37,872 nucleotides of DNA, from the IMG/VR virus record IMGVR_UViG_3300009431_000059, positions 1 to 37,872 of that record; one strand, given 5' to 3'. The notes below the pieces were generated by a model. The model made no database searches. It was not told the origin of the DNA and saw only the letters and a list, made by a program, of their open reading frames with translations. A program made the translations under genes and the position numbers. This document shows positions 2,208 to 37,872 of this stretch, piece by piece (positions within the stretch are counted from its first letter, which is position 1; each line of letters begins with the position of its first letter). This DNA comes from a virus.

Positions 2208-3307
2208 AATATCACCGCATTGGGTTTTTCAGTTGAACTTAGATCTATGCTTGTTAACCAAGTTAAATTACCTTCTTCTCTCATTTCTATAACTATGCTT
2301 GTTATTCCAGAAATATCGATTTGACTTTCTATATAATTTGATGCTAACCATGATGTTATACTTGCCCCTACTCCTGCATTATTTATATATTCTGAAAGTG
2401 CTGTTTCAAATCCAGTAGTATCAAAAATTCCTGTAACTGTATATTGCAATTCAATATTTATTGTAGTAGGTCTAGTAAAATATATATCTCTATCCTCTCC
2501 TTGTAAATCTTGAACTGTTACTATAGTATTACCAAATCTTTCTATCGCTGTATCTGTTTTTTCAAAGATTGTAGTCGCTATTTCTAAATCAACCCCACCA
2601 TCTACGATGCAATGTACTGAATGTGGTGGTAATCCATTTACAATAATTGCTTGGTCGTTTTCTTCTACTACAACACTTTCTACGCCGTCAAGCTCTATCA
2701 AAGCTCTATAAATACCGTCAATATTCCAATATCCTTTACCTGCTCTTCCTGCTAAGAATCTAGCTCTAAAAGCTGTATCTGTTTCTTGATCTTGTCCTCC
2801 TGCTGCATCCGCTGTATTTGATCCTGTATTTATTCCTGAAATAGGTGTTACTATTTCTGTTAAACTTCCTGCCATTATATTCCCATTTACACCTGCGTTT
2901 ACTGCTTCCATTTCTAGCTCTAATACACCAGATCCATCTACATTTCCACTTGTAATATTAATAAAAGCTATTCCGTTTAAATCTTCAACTTGTAAAGCTC
3001 CTATTGCTACAAATGTAGCAGGTGTTGAATCAATTGTTTTCCATGTACATGTAGCTTTTGAAGGTTGTTTTCTGATAAAATTATAGTTACTCAAAAATCT
3101 ATCAAGAAAAACTCCTTCTGCTGTATAAATATATTTGTTATCAATAAAATCTTGGACTTGATTATATTTATTGAAAAGCTCTACTAATAAAGGAAAACTA
3201 AATTTATACCAATTGCTTGATTCAGTTGTATCTACTTCTGATCCGAATTGTGTTTCCATTTCAGATCTCCAAGAATTCACTAAATCTTGAAAAGTTTCTA
3301 TAGCCAT
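2204..3307 (-). CDS. Baseplate protein J-like
   Basis: A 367-residue protein with the baseplate J pattern: an N-terminal helical part that mentions a membrane-distal linker, a repeated beta domain, then the signature around residues 145-180 (PISGINTGSNTADAAGG followed by QETDTAFRARF). J-like proteins form the wedge of contractile baseplates (P2 gpJ, Mu gp47) and trigger sheath contraction. The start ATG overlaps the stop of the gp25-like gene by one base, and its own stop overlaps the next gene by 4 bases, so the wedge genes are translationally coupled. Confidence 0.9.
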   Translation of the reverse strand: MAIETFQDLVNSWRSEMETQFGSEVDTTESSNWYKFSFPLLVELFNKYNQVQDFIDNKYIYTAEGVFLDRFLSNYNFIRKQPSKATCTWKTIDSTPATFVAIGALQVEDLNGIAFINITSGNVDGSGVLELEMEAVNAGVNGNIMAGSLTEIVTPISGINTGSNTADAAGGQDQETDTAFRARFLAGRAGKGYWNIDGIYRALIELDGVESVVVEENDQAIIVNGLPPHSVHCIVDGGVDLEIATTIFEKTDTAIERFGNTIVTVQDLQGEDRDIYFTRPTTINIELQYTVTGIFDTTGFETALSEYINNAGVGASITSWLASNYIESQIDISGITSIVIEMREEGNLTWLTSIDLSSTEKPNAVIL

Positions 3308-3705
3308 TATCCCACCCCAATTTTAAAGGTCTGACTTTCGTTTGACCATATTGTTTTGTATTCAAATTCTATTTTTATTTCTCTGTTTAATTTATTTTTT
3401 TCTACTTCCATCTTTGTTATTTTAGTTATATACTGTTTGTAATATTTCAAAATTTTACTTTTATAATGCTTTTTTATTTGCTGTTCTGTTGTATCTTCAT
3501 CAAGAATATATGTAAAATCTATTCCTTGATTTTGGTCAAAATCTAATTCTCCAGAAGTAATAGTTTCTCCGTTACCATTTTTGTGTGATATTCTTATGTT
3601 TAGAAATATTTCTAGCTGCTTTGTTAACGCTTCAGAGTCTTCTATGAATCCCAGATCGTTATTTATTAAATATAAATCACACTCATTGAATGCTATATCT
3701 TTCAT
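3307..3705 (-). CDS. Baseplate wedge protein, gp25/W-like
   Basis: A 132-residue protein between the spike and J genes, exactly where gp25/gpW-type wedge proteins sit. It begins with a short beta segment containing DLYLINNDLGFIED, typical of phage proteins that read out a gp25-like fold, and then EALTKQLEIFLNIRI, which resembles the gp25 helix that precedes an E/D-rich turn. The C-terminal half has beta strands with Lys/Glu. It would nucleate sheath attachment to the baseplate. Evidence is moderate, from position and local similarity. Confidence 0.6.
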   Translation of the reverse strand: MKDIAFNECDLYLINNDLGFIEDSEALTKQLEIFLNIRISHKNGNGETITSGELDFDQNQGIDFTYILDEDTTEQQIKKHYKSKILKYYKQYITKITKMEVEKNKLNREIKIEFEYKTIWSNESQTFKIGVG

Positions 3706-3714
3706 TTCTCACCT

Positions 3715-4215
3715 CTACGTTGGTGGATTAGTGTTTCCACTTCCTGGACTTCCAGTCCAAGTATAAAAATGTTTATGATCTTTGAAATTTATGCCATCGA
3801 TCTTAAGATTTCCAGTGATATTTACATCACCTGTAAATTCAAAATCAAACCCTACTGGGTTTTGTTCATTGTCTTTTTTTGTATGAATATTAAAAGGTAA
3901 TGCAAAAGCATTAGTTAAGTTGAAAGTTTCAGTGCTTAAAACTTGACCTTTTACACCTCTTGCGAGGTAATTACTGAGATCCATTTGAGTAAAAAAAACT
4001 GTCACAACATCTCCCACACTGCTTTTAAACTTTAAATTTGCAGACTTAGAACCCATGTAGCAAACGGGGACATCTGTTATTACAGGGAAATCAATATTAT
4101 CAAATACGATTGGCTTAATATCCGCATACATTCCGTTTAATTTTACTATCTCGCAAGGCAAAGATACTTTTATTTCATTGAAAAATAAATTTATAATTTT
4201 CTCTAAATCTGTCAT
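3715..4215 (-). CDS. Baseplate spike, Gp138 N-terminal (OB-fold) type
   Basis: A 166-residue protein with an N-terminal OB-like domain (residues about 15-100: segments GMYADIKPIV, PVITDVPVCYMGS, VGDVVTVFFTQMDL) as in the phi92 gp138 / short-tail-spike family. A beta-strand stretch (GDVNITGNLKIDGINF) and a C-terminal HKH segment with Pro/Gly-rich end follow, likely the membrane-piercing tip; the HKH motif could hold a metal ion as in related spikes. Neighbours (hub upstream, gp25 and J downstream) fit a minimal contractile baseplate. Confidence 0.75.
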   Translation of the reverse strand: MTDLEKIINLFFNEIKVSLPCEIVKLNGMYADIKPIVFDNIDFPVITDVPVCYMGSKSANLKFKSSVGDVVTVFFTQMDLSNYLARGVKGQVLSTETFNLTNAFALPFNIHTKKDNEQNPVGFDFEFTGDVNITGNLKIDGINFKDHKHFYTWTGSPGSGNTNPPT

Positions 4216-4577: not shown

Positions 4578-5363
4578 TTATACCTCCATAACTTTCACAA
4601 AATATTGACCTACCCAATTATCTAAATCAAGTTCAATAACTTTGCAGAAAGAATTCAAATTTTCTGTTTCTACTTTTATTACACTATTTTTTCTTATTTC
4701 TGGATTTGCTAAAGCTTCAATTACATAATCATAATCTTTTCCAGTTTCTTCAATTTGAAGCGGTGCTTTTAATAATCCTGCTCCAAACTTTATTATATAA
4801 GATGTTTCTTTAACTTCAATATCAGTATCATATATATATATGAAGTTCCCTTCTATTCTGATATTGATATTTGCTTGCTGAACAAGCTTTTTCATAATAT
4901 TAATGCCTTTTCCGTATGCTACGTATCCATTTTGTTGTAATATATCACTCTTGAGTTCTAATGTTTTTATTATGTATCCTAATTCATTTGCTATGTCTTG
5001 TATTATGAATGATGTTTTCTTGTTTTTGTAACTCTTTGAAATTTCAGAAAAACCATTAACATCAATTTCAATTATTTTTAATTTTGTAATCTCTGTAACG
5101 TCATCAGGAAAACTAACTGTCTTTGTATCAACTGTTCCATTTACTAGTGTTCCACCTATCTTATCAAATCCAAAATCAAAGATAGCTTGAGTTCCTTTTA
5201 GTATTTTATTCTGAAATTTTTTTGTTAAATTTGGTAGTGATATCTCTAAAAATGATGGGTTATTATCATTCTTATCTTGATATCTCCAATCAAATTCATA
5301 TTCTTCATTTGTAATTATTAAACCTGCTATTTGCAATTTTGCTGTACTAATTATTTTAGACAT
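4578..5363 (-). CDS. Baseplate hub protein (gp27 / late control D-like)
   Basis: Start taken at ATG 5363 (261 residues), which overlaps the stop of the plug gene; an alternative in-frame ATG at 5402 would add 13 residues inside the upstream gene. The protein has two beta-domains and a central Ile/Lys-rich helical part (SFIIQDIANELGY, then GKGINIMKKLVQQANINIRI) typical of hub proteins, which carry a LysM-like or helical insertion between barrel domains. It would form the ring joining tube and spike. Assignment by position and domain pattern. Confidence 0.65.
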   Translation of the reverse strand: MSKIISTAKLQIAGLIITNEEYEFDWRYQDKNDNNPSFLEISLPNLTKKFQNKILKGTQAIFDFGFDKIGGTLVNGTVDTKTVSFPDDVTEITKLKIIEIDVNGFSEISKSYKNKKTSFIIQDIANELGYIIKTLELKSDILQQNGYVAYGKGINIMKKLVQQANINIRIEGNFIYIYDTDIEVKETSYIIKFGAGLLKAPLQIEETGKDYDYVIEALANPEIRKNSVIKVETENLNSFCKVIELDLDNWVGQYFVKVMEV

Positions 5364-16900: not shown

Positions 16901-17266
16901 TTATTTTTTGTTTGTTCCTAGAACATTTCTTTCTGCTCTATCTTCAACCCTTTTATTCATCCATAAAAGAGCTTCCTCAATAGCTGTTAATGCTAAAGCA
17001 TTTTCTCTACAAGCAAAATTTCCTTTTTGAAAAGCTTGTAACCTGTGTCTTACTATTTCTAGTAGGTCCACATCTAAAACTCCACCTCTAGAATCTTCTA
17101 AAGTTCTAGGTCCTTTCTGGAATTTTATTTCTGTAACTGTTTCATCCCTTTCTTGGTCGCATTGATGATATACAGCATAATCATGGTAAGCTCCACCAGG
17201 TCCAGCACCTCCATAAACCTGAACATCATTTAATTTGTTTCTCTTTTGAATAGTACTTAGTTCCAA
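16901..17266 (-). CDS. Helical-hairpin phage protein (ENALALT family), possible nucleotide-sponge anti-defence protein
   Basis: Start set at TTG 17266 (121 residues): AGGAGGT lies 6 bases upstream, whereas longer starts run into the previous gene. It has an N-terminal beta part ([18 protein letters not shown]), then EIKFQKGP, and a helical hairpin: [16 protein letters not shown] and [19 protein letters not shown], ending [13 protein letters not shown]. This pattern is widespread in phages. The second helix resembles that of Acb2/Tad1-type hairpin proteins that bind cyclic-nucleotide defence signals, but I cannot confirm homology. It could instead be a structural or assembly protein, given its place between head genes. 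Confidence 0.6.
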
Positions 17267-17285
17267 TTTAAAACCTCCTATATTT

Positions 17286-18035
17286 TTATTCATAAACTGC
17301 CACACAGTAACAATTAATCTTGTTTCCTGCAGACAAATTAGGATCATGAGGATATCTTGCCATCTCGTTTCCTAAGTCAAACTTTTGATTCATTTTCTTT
17401 ATCACTCCATCTATCGCCACATGATTATCTCTTACCGTCTTGCCTCCGTGTGTGTGCAGCCAAGTTTTATTTTTAATACCTGCCTCTTGTGCTGTTGCAT
17501 TGCTTGTATTTTGTATAGAATCAAAAGTCTCAGTTCTTGCAATAGTTCTTGCTCTACCTTGCGACATTCCTTTTATTTCTTTTTGTAGTATCTTAGCAAT
17601 TTCTCTATTGTTCAATCCTTCTTTTTGCCCTTTTGCCACTATATTATTTATTCTATTTCTTGTTGTATTAGTTATGCTTTTTACTCTCTTAGCTAGATAC
17701 TTACTATTGTATTCCTGTAATACCTTAGAGCTTATAGCTTTAATTGTATCGTCCGCAAGTTTCCACCCATACAAAGTATTAACAAATCCCCCTGTGTTAC
17801 CTGCAGTAGTGCTGTAAATCTGAAATAAAGCCTTTTTCATAGATCTTGAAAATTTCCCTAGCAGAATCTTAAAAGGATTCTTAGCAGCAAAATATTGTTT
17901 ATTGTCTTGCTCAAATTGTTTTGCTAGGTCTAGGAATACTTTTGCAACTACTTTTGTATTTCTTCTAGTTTCTCTTTCTGAAAACTCCCTAGTTTTACGA
18001 CCTTTTATTTGTTGTGATCTTGTAGATTTTGCCAT
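17286..18035 (-). CDS. Phage head morphogenesis protein (SPP1 gp7 / Mu F-like)
   Basis: A 249-residue protein overlapping the portal stop as TAATG. Its C-terminal half has the minor-head family signature: [17 protein letters not shown] near residue 165, then [19 protein letters not shown], and the Cys-rich end KINCYCV. The N-terminal half is basic and helical. Minor head proteins of this type are packaged with DNA and bind the portal. Confidence 0.9.
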
Positions 18036-21510: not shown

Positions 21511-21541
21511 TAAATAAAAAAGAGCAGGATTTCTCCTACTC
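21511..21541 (-). terminator. Terminator after large terminase
   Basis: On the minus strand GAGTAGGA (21541-21534) pairs with TCCTGCTC (21529-21522) over a GAAA loop, followed by a T-rich run. It overlaps the terminase stop codon and separates this unit from the RHH promoter. Confidence 0.85.
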
Positions 21542-22776
21542 TAAAAATCATAAACTTTAAAATTACTTACTTGATAATCCTCTAATGCGTACCAAATAGC
21601 ACTAAAAGTATGTGGATCGATATTAAATTGATCTGGTATTATAACATCATTTTTATCTTGCTTAAATACTAAATCTTTTAATTCTATGTAACAATTAGGG
21701 CTATTATCTAATATTATTATCTTCTTGAATCTCTGCATTTTTTTAGTATTTTGCAGCCTACTACCTGCTTTTTTTGCCTCAGTAGCTTTCCACATATTAA
21801 ACCCTTGTTGTTGATAATATGCAATAGTTTTCGGCTCTGCTCCATCTGCATATATAAGCTCACCAGTTTCTTTAAACTCTTGAATATAGTCTTTTATTAT
21901 ATCATCTGTCATATAGTTTTGATAAAATTCATAATATACATATAACCATTCTTTGTCTTGATCTATACAAGTTCTCATAAGTGCTGTCTTTGATCCAGTA
22001 TACCCAAAATCCATACCTGCATTAAATAAAGGTCTTTTTATCATGCTTATAGCTTCCATACCTTCTTTTTCTGCCATAGATACAATATGTTTTAGAACTT
22101 TAACACCAATAGTTCCGAACTCTCCTAATCTAGCTACTCTATATAAGTCAGGATCTGTAAATTCTAATTCATCCAATGTCTCTATATATTCATCTGTAGC
22201 AAAAGGGTTGTCGTCAACTGTGCTTTGATGAAAAAATATATGTTTTTTATTTATCTTGTCATTCTCAAAGAAATGTTTATACATCCACATTGATTTACTT
22301 ATCGGATTTGTAGTCATTATCCAGTGAACACTTAAAAAAGGGTGTCTTGCTCTCCCTTTAATCTCTTTATAATCTGCATAACTAAACTCAGAAACTTCTT
22401 CCATCCAAACTATAGATACATCTGGAAGTGATTTTAATTTTTCCTTATCGTCAAGTCCTTTAAAAATAAACTCTGATCCTGTTAGTTTATTTTTTATGTA
22501 TAAAGGGCTTTTTTTAAACTCAAAGAACATCCCCATTTGATGCCTATTAATAACTTTTTTTAACAGCCTATAACATGAATCCTCAAGAGTTCCGTACACC
22601 TTTCTTGTTACAAGTATCAATCTCTCTTCTTCAAAAGATTTTTTTATTAATTTAAAGGCAGTAGTATCACTTTTTCCTGATCCATATCCACCATAAACAA
22701 AATACTCTCTATGACTCCAATCCTCCAGGTATTCCATAAAGCTTTCAGATATACCTATATTTATAGGATCACTCAT
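21541..22776 (-). CDS. terL: Terminase large subunit (PBSX/Terminase_3 type)
   Basis: ATG 22776 (411 residues) is preferred, with AAGG upstream; a TTG at 22785 is also possible. Walker A is GGYGSGKS at residues 29-36, Walker B is IVWMEE at 122-127, with the TTNP coupling motif later (IMTTNPIS). The nuclease domain begins at GMDFGYTGS, whose Asp is the first metal ligand. It packages DNA as an ATP-driven motor and cuts at headful or site ends. It is separated from the portal by about 2.2 kb of regulator and leader genes, which is unusual since they normally adjoin. Confidence 0.95.
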   Translation of the reverse strand: MSDPINIGISESFMEYLEDWSHREYFVYGGYGSGKSDTTAFKLIKKSFEEERLILVTRKVYGTLEDSCYRLLKKVINRHQMGMFFEFKKSPLYIKNKLTGSEFIFKGLDDKEKLKSLPDVSIVWMEEVSEFSYADYKEIKGRARHPFLSVHWIMTTNPISKSMWMYKHFFENDKINKKHIFFHQSTVDDNPFATDEYIETLDELEFTDPDLYRVARLGEFGTIGVKVLKHIVSMAEKEGMEAISMIKRPLFNAGMDFGYTGSKTALMRTCIDQDKEWLYVYYEFYQNYMTDDIIKDYIQEFKETGELIYADGAEPKTIAYYQQQGFNMWKATEAKKAGSRLQNTKKMQRFKKIIILDNSPNCYIELKDLVFKQDKNDVIIPDQFNIDPHTFSAIWYALEDYQVSNFKVYDF

Positions 22777-23257
22777 TTTCTTCAACCTTTTTCTTTTTGA
22801 CCGGCATTGAAGTTATATTGAATACTACTGTTTGATCCGGAATCTCTTCTTTTGGTTTGTCCCATCCTTCTAATTTTGCTATTTGACCTGCAATCGCAGA
22901 AACTGCTTTTAAATCAGCACTGTGATATTCACTTTCTTTCGTAGTTATCTCACCCATAAAGCTAGTAGACAAAAGCACCGGTGTCGGTTCTACTCCTAAA
23001 GCCATGTAGAAAGCTCTCTTTAGCTCTTTCAAGAGTTCGTCACGCTTCATTATAGCTTTTTCCTGATGTATTTTTTGTAACTCTTCGTACCTTGCCCTTA
23101 TATTGTCTTGTGCAAAAAGTCTACTTGCTTTCTCTATAATAGTTTTTTCTTTCATTTTAGAAGTGTTATAATAATTCTTATAAGCTTGTGTTTGCTTAAT
23201 TCCTGAAATTATATCATTTACAAAACCTTCTTGTTTTGCAGTCAATTTCTTCTTCAT
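22769..23257 (-). CDS. terS: Terminase small subunit
   Basis: A 162-residue protein from ATG 23257 (a TTG at 23266 is possible). The N-terminal region LTAKQEGFVNDIISGIKQTQ... AYKNYY followed by KASRLFAQDNIRARYEEL is the Terminase_2 helix-turn-helix pattern, which recognises pac/cos DNA. The middle helices (RDELLKELKRAFYM) oligomerise. It overlaps the large subunit by 8 bases. Confidence 0.88.
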   Translation of the reverse strand: MKKKLTAKQEGFVNDIISGIKQTQAYKNYYNTSKMKEKTIIEKASRLFAQDNIRARYEELQKIHQEKAIMKRDELLKELKRAFYMALGVEPTPVLLSTSFMGEITTKESEYHSADLKAVSAIAGQIAKLEGWDKPKEEIPDQTVVFNITSMPVKKKKVEENE

Positions 23258-23279
23258 ATCAATCAACTCTTTTATTTTA

Positions 23280-23301: not shown

Positions 23302-23325
23302 AAAAAAAGGGGCTATCAGCCCCCT
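23302..23325 (-). terminator. Terminator after holin-like gene
   Basis: On the minus strand GGGGCT (23323-23318) pairs with AGCCCC (23314-23309) across a 3-base loop, followed by seven T. It directly follows the holin-like stop and ends the ncRNA/holin unit. Confidence 0.9.
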
Positions 23326-23900
23326 TAGAATTTATAAATTAAATCTGCTCCTGTTTCAATCCCTTGTTTCATTCCAGCTCTAACATAAGCTATTATCTCA
23401 CCTTTTTTTATTTCATCTTTTACTTGCTTCCCTATTACATTTATAGTTCCATTATCAGTCAGATTTGGATTCCTGTTATATTTAGAATCTATTGCTTTAT
23501 TAACAACTTTTTCAACAGCAATCTTTGCAACTTCTTTTGCTTTTTCTGTAACTTGAGCTTTCATTTCTTTTTTATTCTCTGATTGAAGGTAATTTATATA
23601 TTTCACAGCTTCTTCAAGCCACTCTTCAATCTTTTCTTCAGATATAAAACACTTAATCAATATTCTAGCTATAACAGGCATAGAATTTATCTTTTGCCTT
23701 AAAATACTTTTGAAGTGTACAAGTTTATTGTATCCGCTGTTTTTTATTTCTTTCTCAACTTGCAATGCTACCTGGTAGACTAACCCTATCAAAACTGCCT
23801 TTTTATCCTTTCCTGCCTTAACCCATGCCTGTGCAAATGCAAATACAAACAATCCAATTATTGCTATATTTTGCCAATTCATTAATGAAAATTCTTTCAT
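23325..23900 (-). CDS. Holin-like membrane protein (LL-H type)
   Basis: A 191-residue protein with one transmembrane segment at residues 8-27, then a long charged helical region. The part AVLIGLVYQVALQVEKEIKN and IEEWLEEAVKYINYL resembles LL-H-type holins (single N-terminal segment, AV..aE....G then IE.AV..LN). It is preceded by a 15-bp hairpin and an AAGGAGGG ribosome site, and lies between a structured RNA and the terminase genes, not beside the lysozyme. Holin role is inferred. Confidence 0.6.
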   Translation of the reverse strand: MKEFSLMNWQNIAIIGLFVFAFAQAWVKAGKDKKAVLIGLVYQVALQVEKEIKNSGYNKLVHFKSILRQKINSMPVIARILIKCFISEEKIEEWLEEAVKYINYLQSENKKEMKAQVTEKAKEVAKIAVEKVVNKAIDSKYNRNPNLTDNGTINVIGKQVKDEIKKGEIIAYVRAGMKQGIETGADLIYKF

Positions 23901-23915
23901 TTACTCCCTCCTTTT

Positions 23916-23953
23916 AATTAAGTTGAGGAGCTGAGAAACTCCTCAATTTAATT
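23916..23953 (-). promoter_or_regulatory. 15-bp hairpin upstream of holin-like ribosome site
   Basis: Arms 23916-23930 and 23939-23953 pair at 14 of 15 positions over an 8-base loop; the 3' arm is followed at once by AAGGAGGG. It might be the 3' end of the structured RNA, a processing site, or a translational control for the holin-like gene. Confidence 0.6.
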
Positions 23954-24266
23954 AATGAAAAAATAATGAGATATAAACAAAACGATATCGTTTGCCATAA
24001 CCTCATTGAATCCGCATAGTACTTTTTTACACTTAAAATAAGGTGCGTGAAGGTTTCTCAACCTCTATTGCGAACTCAATGAGACAGCCGAATAATCGGC
24101 ATCTCAGACACAGATAAGAGCTGATTCTATCATTTAACTTACACATTTACGCCAAGCACTCCGCAAAATTGCATTGCTTAATTCTCTCTTGTCTATACAA
24201 AACATTTTTTTCTTATTGCGCACAAAACTAACATATAGTTATTGCATTTCTGCAAATTATTTTTGA

Positions 24267-24335
24267 TGCTCAAGCGAGGAGTCGAACCTCAATCAATAGA
24301 ATAAATCTAGTTCTGACCACTCAGAAAACTTGAAC
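24267..24335 (-). tRNA. tRNA-like element with shortened anticodon arm
   Basis: On the minus strand GTTCAAG pairs with CTTGAGC as a 7-bp acceptor (one G-U), followed by A as discriminator. The T arm TGAGG/CCTCG carries a canonical TTCGACT loop. The D arm TTCTG/CAGAA closes a loop with GG. The anticodon arm is only TAGA/TCTA around five bases, so no standard anticodon can be read; total length is 69 nt and CCA is not encoded. It may be a decayed tRNA, a tRNA mimic, or a piece of the larger RNA. Confidence 0.5.
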
Positions 24336-24409
24336 AAGTTGTAGTTTTACTTGTTTGCGCAAGGTTTGTTTACCGACGTATAACTTTAAAGACTGTTAAT
24401 CTTCCATAT

Positions 24410-24447
24410 AAAAAAATCTCGATACCCCTCTGACAAGATACCGAGAT
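24410..24447 (-). terminator. Strong intrinsic terminator in the non-coding region
   Basis: On the minus strand an 11-bp stem (24447-24437 with 24426-24416, including G-U pairs) and 10-base loop are followed by seven T. From the promoter start at about 24528 it would give a 119-nt RNA. Confidence 0.85.
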
Positions 24448-24534
24448 TATAATTATCTCTAACGCCAGAGTATAAAACCACCGAGCCTAAACTAGTGGGC
24501 GTAAAGCTTATTCACTCTACCCAATTACATTACT

Positions 24535-24563
24535 AGTATACTACATCTTTTTTATCTTGTCAA
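24535..24563 (-). promoter_or_regulatory. Consensus promoter for non-coding RNA
   Basis: TTGACA (24563-24558), 17 bases, TATACT (24540-24535), with GATGTAG directly before the -10. This is one of the two strongest promoter sequences in the genome, and it drives RNA with no protein gene for 600 bases. Confidence 0.85.
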
Positions 24564-24617
24564 TACTTTAATTTAATTATTTCTATTATAAACTCTTTCG
24601 TTTCAAAACCTGCTGTT

Positions 24618-31223: not shown

Positions 31224-31376
31224 TTAAACCACCAACTTTTTTAGCGTTACTACTCCATTTTTTTCTTCCCATATTATTCGGTCTTTTTTTTCTAGCTTCA
31301 TTTTTTTAACTATCTCTTTTGGAATAGATGTAGTGTTTTGATTTCCGTTAACTTCTTGTACTTTAGTTAATAGCAT
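31224..31376 (-). CDS. AbrB/MazE-type transition-state regulator
   Basis: A 50-residue protein from ATG 31376 with GGAGGGG upstream. It reads as a single swapped-hairpin unit: TKVQEVNGNQNTTSIPKEIV followed by KKMKLEKKDRIIWEEKNGVV. The SIP-K-E-I-x-K pattern is diagnostic of SpoVT/AbrB. It is the first gene of the replication operon and may repress the promoter 23 bases upstream. Confidence 0.85.
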   Translation of the reverse strand: MLLTKVQEVNGNQNTTSIPKEIVKKMKLEKKDRIIWEEKNGVVTLKKLVV

Positions 31377-31398
31377 AAAATCCCCTCCTCTCATTTAC

Positions 31399-37625: not shown

Positions 37626-37872
37626 ATATTGCTGCTATTATGAAACAAAGTAATTCTTCATATCTAATCTTATATGCCTCCCCTGCTTCCTTTAAAACTG
37701 TTCCTTCCTTGTCGATGATTTCATCCCATTCATCAAAGCATAATATTCCGTAATCAAATGCATTTAGTCCTTCTTCTGAAAATGCTTTATCGACTTCTTG
37801 AGCTATTATTCCGATATGGGTTCTTGCTCCTTCTCCTTTTTCTGCAACAGCTCTTTTTAATCTGTATTTTCT
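37624..37872 (-). CDS. Tail fibre, C-terminal S74 chaperone part
   Basis: This is the C-terminal part of the fibre gene whose start lies at 1545, in frame across the circular join. It encodes the end of the S74 intramolecular chaperone, with the family pattern ARTHIGIIAQEVD followed by FSEEGLNAFDYGILCF and the closing YEELLCFIIAAI. It ends at TAA 37624-37626, inside the shared terminator. Confidence 0.88.
   Translation of the reverse strand, partial: RKYRLKRAVAEKGEGARTHIGIIAQEVDKAFSEEGLNAFDYGILCFDEWDEIIDKEGTVLKEAGEAYKIRYEELLCFIIAAI
37825..37872. repeat. Terminal direct repeat, right copy
   Basis: Matches bases 1-48 with one mismatch (37862 C versus 38 T). See the left copy. Both are coding in the same frame. 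Confidence 0.9.

Follow-up and report, generated by a model that had tools for sequence, protein, structure and literature searches.

A gene-free stretch ahead of the terminase genes of a phage reads as three adjacent RNA modules: a short terminated RNA, a defective tRNA and a probable branched leader of the packaging genes

The window analysed here is a whole virus record (IMGVR_UViG_3300009431_000059) of 37,872 bases, with nearly all of its genes on the minus strand. Its two ends carry a 49-nt repeat with one mismatch (positions 1-49 and 37824-37872), and a tail-fibre-like reading frame exits at the left end of the contig and resumes at the right, so that the contig is most likely a complete, circular phage genome of ~37.8 kb. 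Positions 23901-24617 form the largest gap in this genome and its sole large non-coding stretch, no other coming near that size; an apparent 890-nt gap at 655-1544 is the tail-fibre-like gene running across the contig end. ORFs of at least 40 amino acids (aa) are absent from both strands of 23901-24617, the longest small ORF being 37 aa, which bears out the proposal of a first-pass annotation that the region is free of protein genes within a tightly packed genome.

The stretch is flanked by the gene for a GNAT-like acetyltransferase and by the gene that precedes terS. On one side are early-type genes (GNAT, MazG-like and methyltransferase), and on the other, a gene for a 191-aa protein (23325-23900, minus strand), followed by those for the terminase subunits, with which the packaging genes begin (21541-23266, minus strand; small subunit 22769-23266, large subunit 21541-22785). 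The 191-aa protein has an N-terminal hydrophobic stretch and is weakly related to a protein encoded in a phage lysis cassette (possibly holin-like); a terminator (23326-23307) follows its gene. Elsewhere in the genome, a 148-aa protein (16901-17347) matches the Acb2/Tad1 hairpin domain PF24729 at 28.6 bits, where the cut-off is 27 bits, and may possibly be a counter-defence sponge.

On the minus strand, the region opens with a sigma-70/A-type promoter, TTGACA-17-TATACT (24563-24535), which bears out the consensus promoter of the first-pass annotation and matches at 11 of 12 positions; transcription would start near 24528. Genome-wide, eight promoter-like sites match at 11 or more of the 12 positions, against 1.85 expected, and the same hexamers and spacing recur at 31427-31399, just upstream of a MazE/AbrB-like gene (31224-31394). 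Three hairpins follow the presumed start (24520-24501, 24498-24478 and 24470-24457), and then an intrinsic terminator that the first pass had overlooked, referred to here as terminator 1 (24448-24408), with a 14-bp stem, a 6-nt loop and a U-run (-16 kcal/mol). It is the strongest terminator-like site found genome-wide, lies about 115-120 nt past the inferred start, and also closes the upstream gene block. For their respective kinds, promoter and terminator are each near the top of the genome, and both are on the coding strand. With an intrinsic terminator ~115 nt past the start, the default product would be a short RNA of ~120 nt (24528-24408), the 5' module, whose folding z-score is -3.3. By eye, an H-type pseudoknot (AGAGU/ACUCU with ACGCC/GGCGU) could be drawn in this module; it would compete with hairpins that have better support, and is not claimed.

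Further along the same strand, positions 24335-24267 resemble a tRNA, with a 7-bp acceptor stem, a D-arm with an AGUGGU loop, a T-arm (UGAGG-UUCGACU-CCUCG) and a discriminator A. A focused search of a 101-nt stretch with the Rfam tRNA model (RF00005) gave 31.3 bits against a cut-off of 29; Rfam scans of longer stretches do not report the element, which is presumably lost at their filters. ARAGORN does not call it by default, and does so at 95% of the default threshold, at which only one in 1500 shuffled sequences was called; a strict acceptor/T-arm descriptor matches it, and matches nothing in shuffled sequence. Low-threshold calls of a tmRNA were spurious, and that reading was dropped. In place of the 5-bp stem, 7-nt loop, U33 and purine 37 of a decoding-competent anticodon arm, the element has either a 5-nt loop, or a 7-nt loop with a C.U stem mismatch, U37 and the anticodon UUA. 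Such an anticodon would read UAA, the commonest stop codon of this phage (32 of 50 genes), and a working decoder would thus be harmful; judged from its sequence, the element is unlikely to serve in translation. A long hairpin into which the element could fold instead (-22.5 kcal/mol) is more stable than the cloverleaf (-17.5 kcal/mol), so that this may be a tRNA that has decayed and lost its function. A 7-bp helix, UUGCGCA/UGCGCAA (24362-24356 with 24222-24216, probability 0.86), encloses the element together with a GAAA hairpin at 24255-24242, while the middle segment as a whole carries no folding signal (z -1.1).

The 3' module (about 24110-23955) has the strongest folding signal of the three (z -4.9). 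It comprises a hairpin at 24105-24081, a three-way junction closed by 24080-24069 paired with 24016-24005 and containing a GAGA hairpin (24064-24051), and a second terminator-like hairpin (24006-23957; -11.6 kcal/mol, then UUAUUUUUU), which is weaker than terminator 1. A near-perfect 17-bp hairpin follows (23955-23914, within 23956-23904), directly 5' of the ribosome-binding site AAGGAGGGAG of the 191-aa gene. The two GNRA hairpins of the region, UUGCA-GAAA-UGCAA and AGGUU-GAGA-AACCU, were already noted at first pass, as were other hairpins, and all were found again in place on the minus strand. GNRA hairpins with stems of at least 5 bp number two on this strand, against 0.3 expected from shuffles, and zero on the plus strand. 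The 8-bp long-range pairing that had been described at the junction (24076-24083 with 24002-24009) is likewise present, and proves to be longer: its 12 bp, at a probability of 0.87, extend to as many as 14 when G-U pairs are counted, and close the three-way junction.

How far these parts belong to one molecule can be judged from their folding. Over the whole region the z-score is -3.8 on the minus strand and -2.6 on the plus strand, and several coding windows of the same genome reach -4 to -7, so that the fold is only moderately unusual and unremarkable beside those windows. Folding the three modules separately loses 5.1 of the 154.5 kcal/mol, whereas each of 60 random two-cut partitions lost more (at least 6.7, with a median of 15.4), in a calculation that does not capture pseudoknots or tertiary contacts. 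The modules are thus predicted to fold independently, and this cheap cut, together with the strength of terminator 1, argues for modules over one interlocked, ornate RNA. Of the ~600-nt structured non-coding RNA first proposed here, the structured, non-coding region on the minus strand is well supported; its being a single RNA fits poorly with terminator 1 and the independent modules.

The only homologues found are two other contigs, identical over this region and 99.95% identical nearly everywhere else. Searches of the closest TerL relatives (PM1, A403, PBP180 and Funu2) and of a further 80+80+80 loci by blastn, nhmmer and covariance model found no homologous RNA; sequence searches recognised no homologue in more than 230 phage and prophage loci with related terminases, covariance models gave no match in the 83 of these that they covered, and a nucleotide search of annotated phages and plasmids gave none. 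Two single-sequence covariance models (R1 and R2) returned no convincing relative. Among host genomes, the sole match of the 3' model (391 genomes) falls within a glutamine-synthetase-like gene and is spurious, and the matches of the 5' model, in four of 398 genomes, are chiefly to the terminator hairpin, with unrelated chromosomal genes around the three whose surroundings were examined.

Elements resembling the one described here do occur ahead of terminases. In 182 non-redundant related loci, the strict tRNA-like descriptor found 12 matches (shuffled sequence, 0), ten of them upstream of a terminase on the sense strand and the remaining two being ordinary tRNAs; the position therefore favours tRNA-like elements. 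ARAGORN fails to call several of these ten, and some, in L137, L037, L098 and L008 (Bacillus phage PM1), have no ordinary D and anticodon arms. Full or mini (acceptor plus T-arm) versions were seen in the Firmicutes phages L008 (~2984-3030 and 3391-3451), L034 (~70-130 and ~240-290), L037 (~4922-4963), L137 (~3240-3285), L098 and L126, upstream of the terminase and in the sense orientation; many of them go uncalled by ARAGORN. Between L034 and L098, the T-stems are altered on both sides (GUUAG/CUAAC to GUAAG/CUUAC, and CUAGG/CCUAG to CUAAG/CUUAG), which supports a real hairpin there. Related phages also have ordinary tRNAs at this position. In viral contigs, mini tRNA-like hairpins sought with a degenerate pattern showed no enrichment, with 12 filtered matches against 26 in a scrambled control, among the matches listed, most of which reflect tRNA arrays. 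Other non-coding structure was encountered upstream of terminases: a GC-richer, hairpin-rich stretch of ~500 nt with a terminator, common to L029 (~3574-3822) and L043 (~2380-2930), in part 94% identical and without an Rfam match; and, before terS in L008 (~2700-3030), two structured, direct-repeat-like units with a common GUCAAGGGUCGCCGUC, a piece of which is 87% identical to L143.

Taken together, the region reads as three adjoining RNA pieces: first a short RNA with its own terminator, then a broken tRNA, and last a branched leader ahead of the packaging genes. Building on the promoter, the terminators, the tRNA match, the helices and the gene order, all of which can be read from the DNA, our main interpretation, with a probability of about 0.45, is that this is a leader at the early/late junction, serving the packaging/lysis side, with default termination, read-through and processing of a non-decoding tRNA. 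RNA polymerase would start at the 24563-24535 promoter and by default halt at terminator 1, releasing the ~120-nt structured RNA. Regulated read-through of terminator 1 and of the weaker terminator 2 would yield a transcript that adds the non-decoding tRNA and the branched 3' domain, and that enters the 191-aa gene behind the hairpin ending at its ribosome-binding site. The tRNA-like element would most likely be cut by RNase P (and RNase Z), detaching the RNA upstream of it from the mRNA that carries the gene. Transcription, regulated read-through and RNase P cleavage are the predicted steps of this model. From terminator 1 to the next gene there is no promoter of comparable quality, so that any transcript of that gene begun at 24563-24535 must traverse both terminators. 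Against the model, the late genes could use an unrecognised promoter instead, and a scan of gene products recognised none as a Q-like or LoaP-like antiterminator; antiterminator proteins diverge fast.

A somewhat less probable explanation, though one to be taken seriously, is that an ordinary gene for a small RNA of ~120 nt, a defunct tRNA gene and a structured 5' leader of the usual kind have come together by chance, in a place where phages frequently acquire tRNAs. The independent folding of the modules, the lack of signal in the middle segment and the ordinary tRNAs found at the same position in related phages would all follow, whereas the survival of the acceptor stem and T-arm, when the anticodon arm is broken, is odd for random decay. 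Conservation is neutral on this point, as the three contigs are identical here and 99.95% identical nearly everywhere.

It is unlikely that the promoter instead drives a single ornate RNA of ~570 nt (24528 to ~23957) from a class not yet described, with a tRNA in its middle as in some GOLLD RNAs; polymerase would then read through terminator 1, as an internal hairpin, and the RNA would end at terminator 2. The strongly folded 3' domain, contiguous with a terminator-like end, is what such an RNA would show, as are the excess of GNRA hairpins, the helix enclosing the tRNA-like element, and the occupation of the genome's sole gene-free stretch of such size. GOLLD RNAs, found in phages and hundreds of nucleotides long, sometimes have tRNAs in their linker, and ROOL RNAs, also from phages, often lie close to tRNAs (PMC12286853). 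Set against this are a 14-bp stem and U-run 115 nt past the promoter, the modularity of the fold, an overall z-score unexceptional for this genome, and the lack of a relative in the 83 related phage loci and in the 391 (3' model) and 398 (5' model) host genomes.

A DNA-level site, such as a cos/pac end, a replication origin or an operator region, whose inverted repeats mimic RNA hairpins, is improbable. The position upstream of terS, a perfect palindrome (AAACGATATCGTTT) and the 17-bp inverted repeat near the gene start would suit it, but the structure is strand-biased (z -3.8 against -2.6), its long helices require G-U pairs on the minus strand, the U-runs and tRNA are on that strand only, iterons are absent, and terS is another 630 bp away. 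Least credible by far is a diverged ROOL or GOLLD, the families put forward at first pass on account of size, phage setting and nearby tRNA genes: the whole of Rfam gave nothing at gathering or relaxed thresholds except the tRNA of the focused search, and neither the 416-position GOLLD model (RF02032; gathering score 150 bits) nor the 574-position ROOL model (RF03087) matched when searched alone at E up to 10, the latter being a slightly weaker result, as no positive control registered in that search. The remark about tRNA genes was truer than its author knew, since a degenerate tRNA, overlooked at the time, lies inside the region itself.

It is a more speculative suggestion, and a doubtful one, that the region represents a new large class of phage RNA with an embedded non-decoding tRNA at the early/late junction, and that the tRNA-like elements in front of terminases in Firmicutes phages are processing or regulatory modules. 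If the main interpretation is right, the leader of a phage's packaging genes contains a tRNA that does not decode and that has a structural or processing role, and the recurrence of tRNA-like elements before terminases would suggest that phages make general use of host RNase P in expressing their genes. Elements of this kind, inside supposed giant RNAs, escape standard tRNA scans run at default settings.

Comparison with known systems places the region between several of them. It shares with GOLLD (RF02032), which assembles as a 14-mer nanocage, a phage setting, a length of hundreds of nucleotides and an internal tRNA, but differs in having no sequence or structure match and a strong terminator inside; with ROOL (RF03087) it has in common the phage setting, a similar length and tRNA proximity, though not a covariance-model match. 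Compared with tRNA (RF00005), the element keeps the 7-bp acceptor, the D-arm and the canonical T-arm and T-loop, and departs in its defective anticodon arm and short D and variable loops. RNase P recognises the stack of acceptor and T-arm, and also cleaves other RNAs that present such a stack (PMC4919913, PMC11143913). The intact part of the element is this very stack, which RNase P measures in model substrates made of acceptor stem and T-arm hairpins (PMC11143913, PMC4919913); unlike these, the element retains D and anticodon arms and has no encoded CCA, and its cleavage is a prediction. For the region as a whole, the closest counterpart is the late leader of phage lambda. At lambda pR'/6S RNA/tR', a strong promoter makes a short structured transcript that runs to an intrinsic terminator, with the packaging/lysis-side genes farther on, and the same order of strong promoter, short structured RNA, terminator and distant late genes is found here, with no promoter of similar strength in between. 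A Q homologue or Q-binding site, as in lambda, was not identified, and, as a further difference, the terminator of the phage described here is separated from the genes by a tRNA and a second branched domain.
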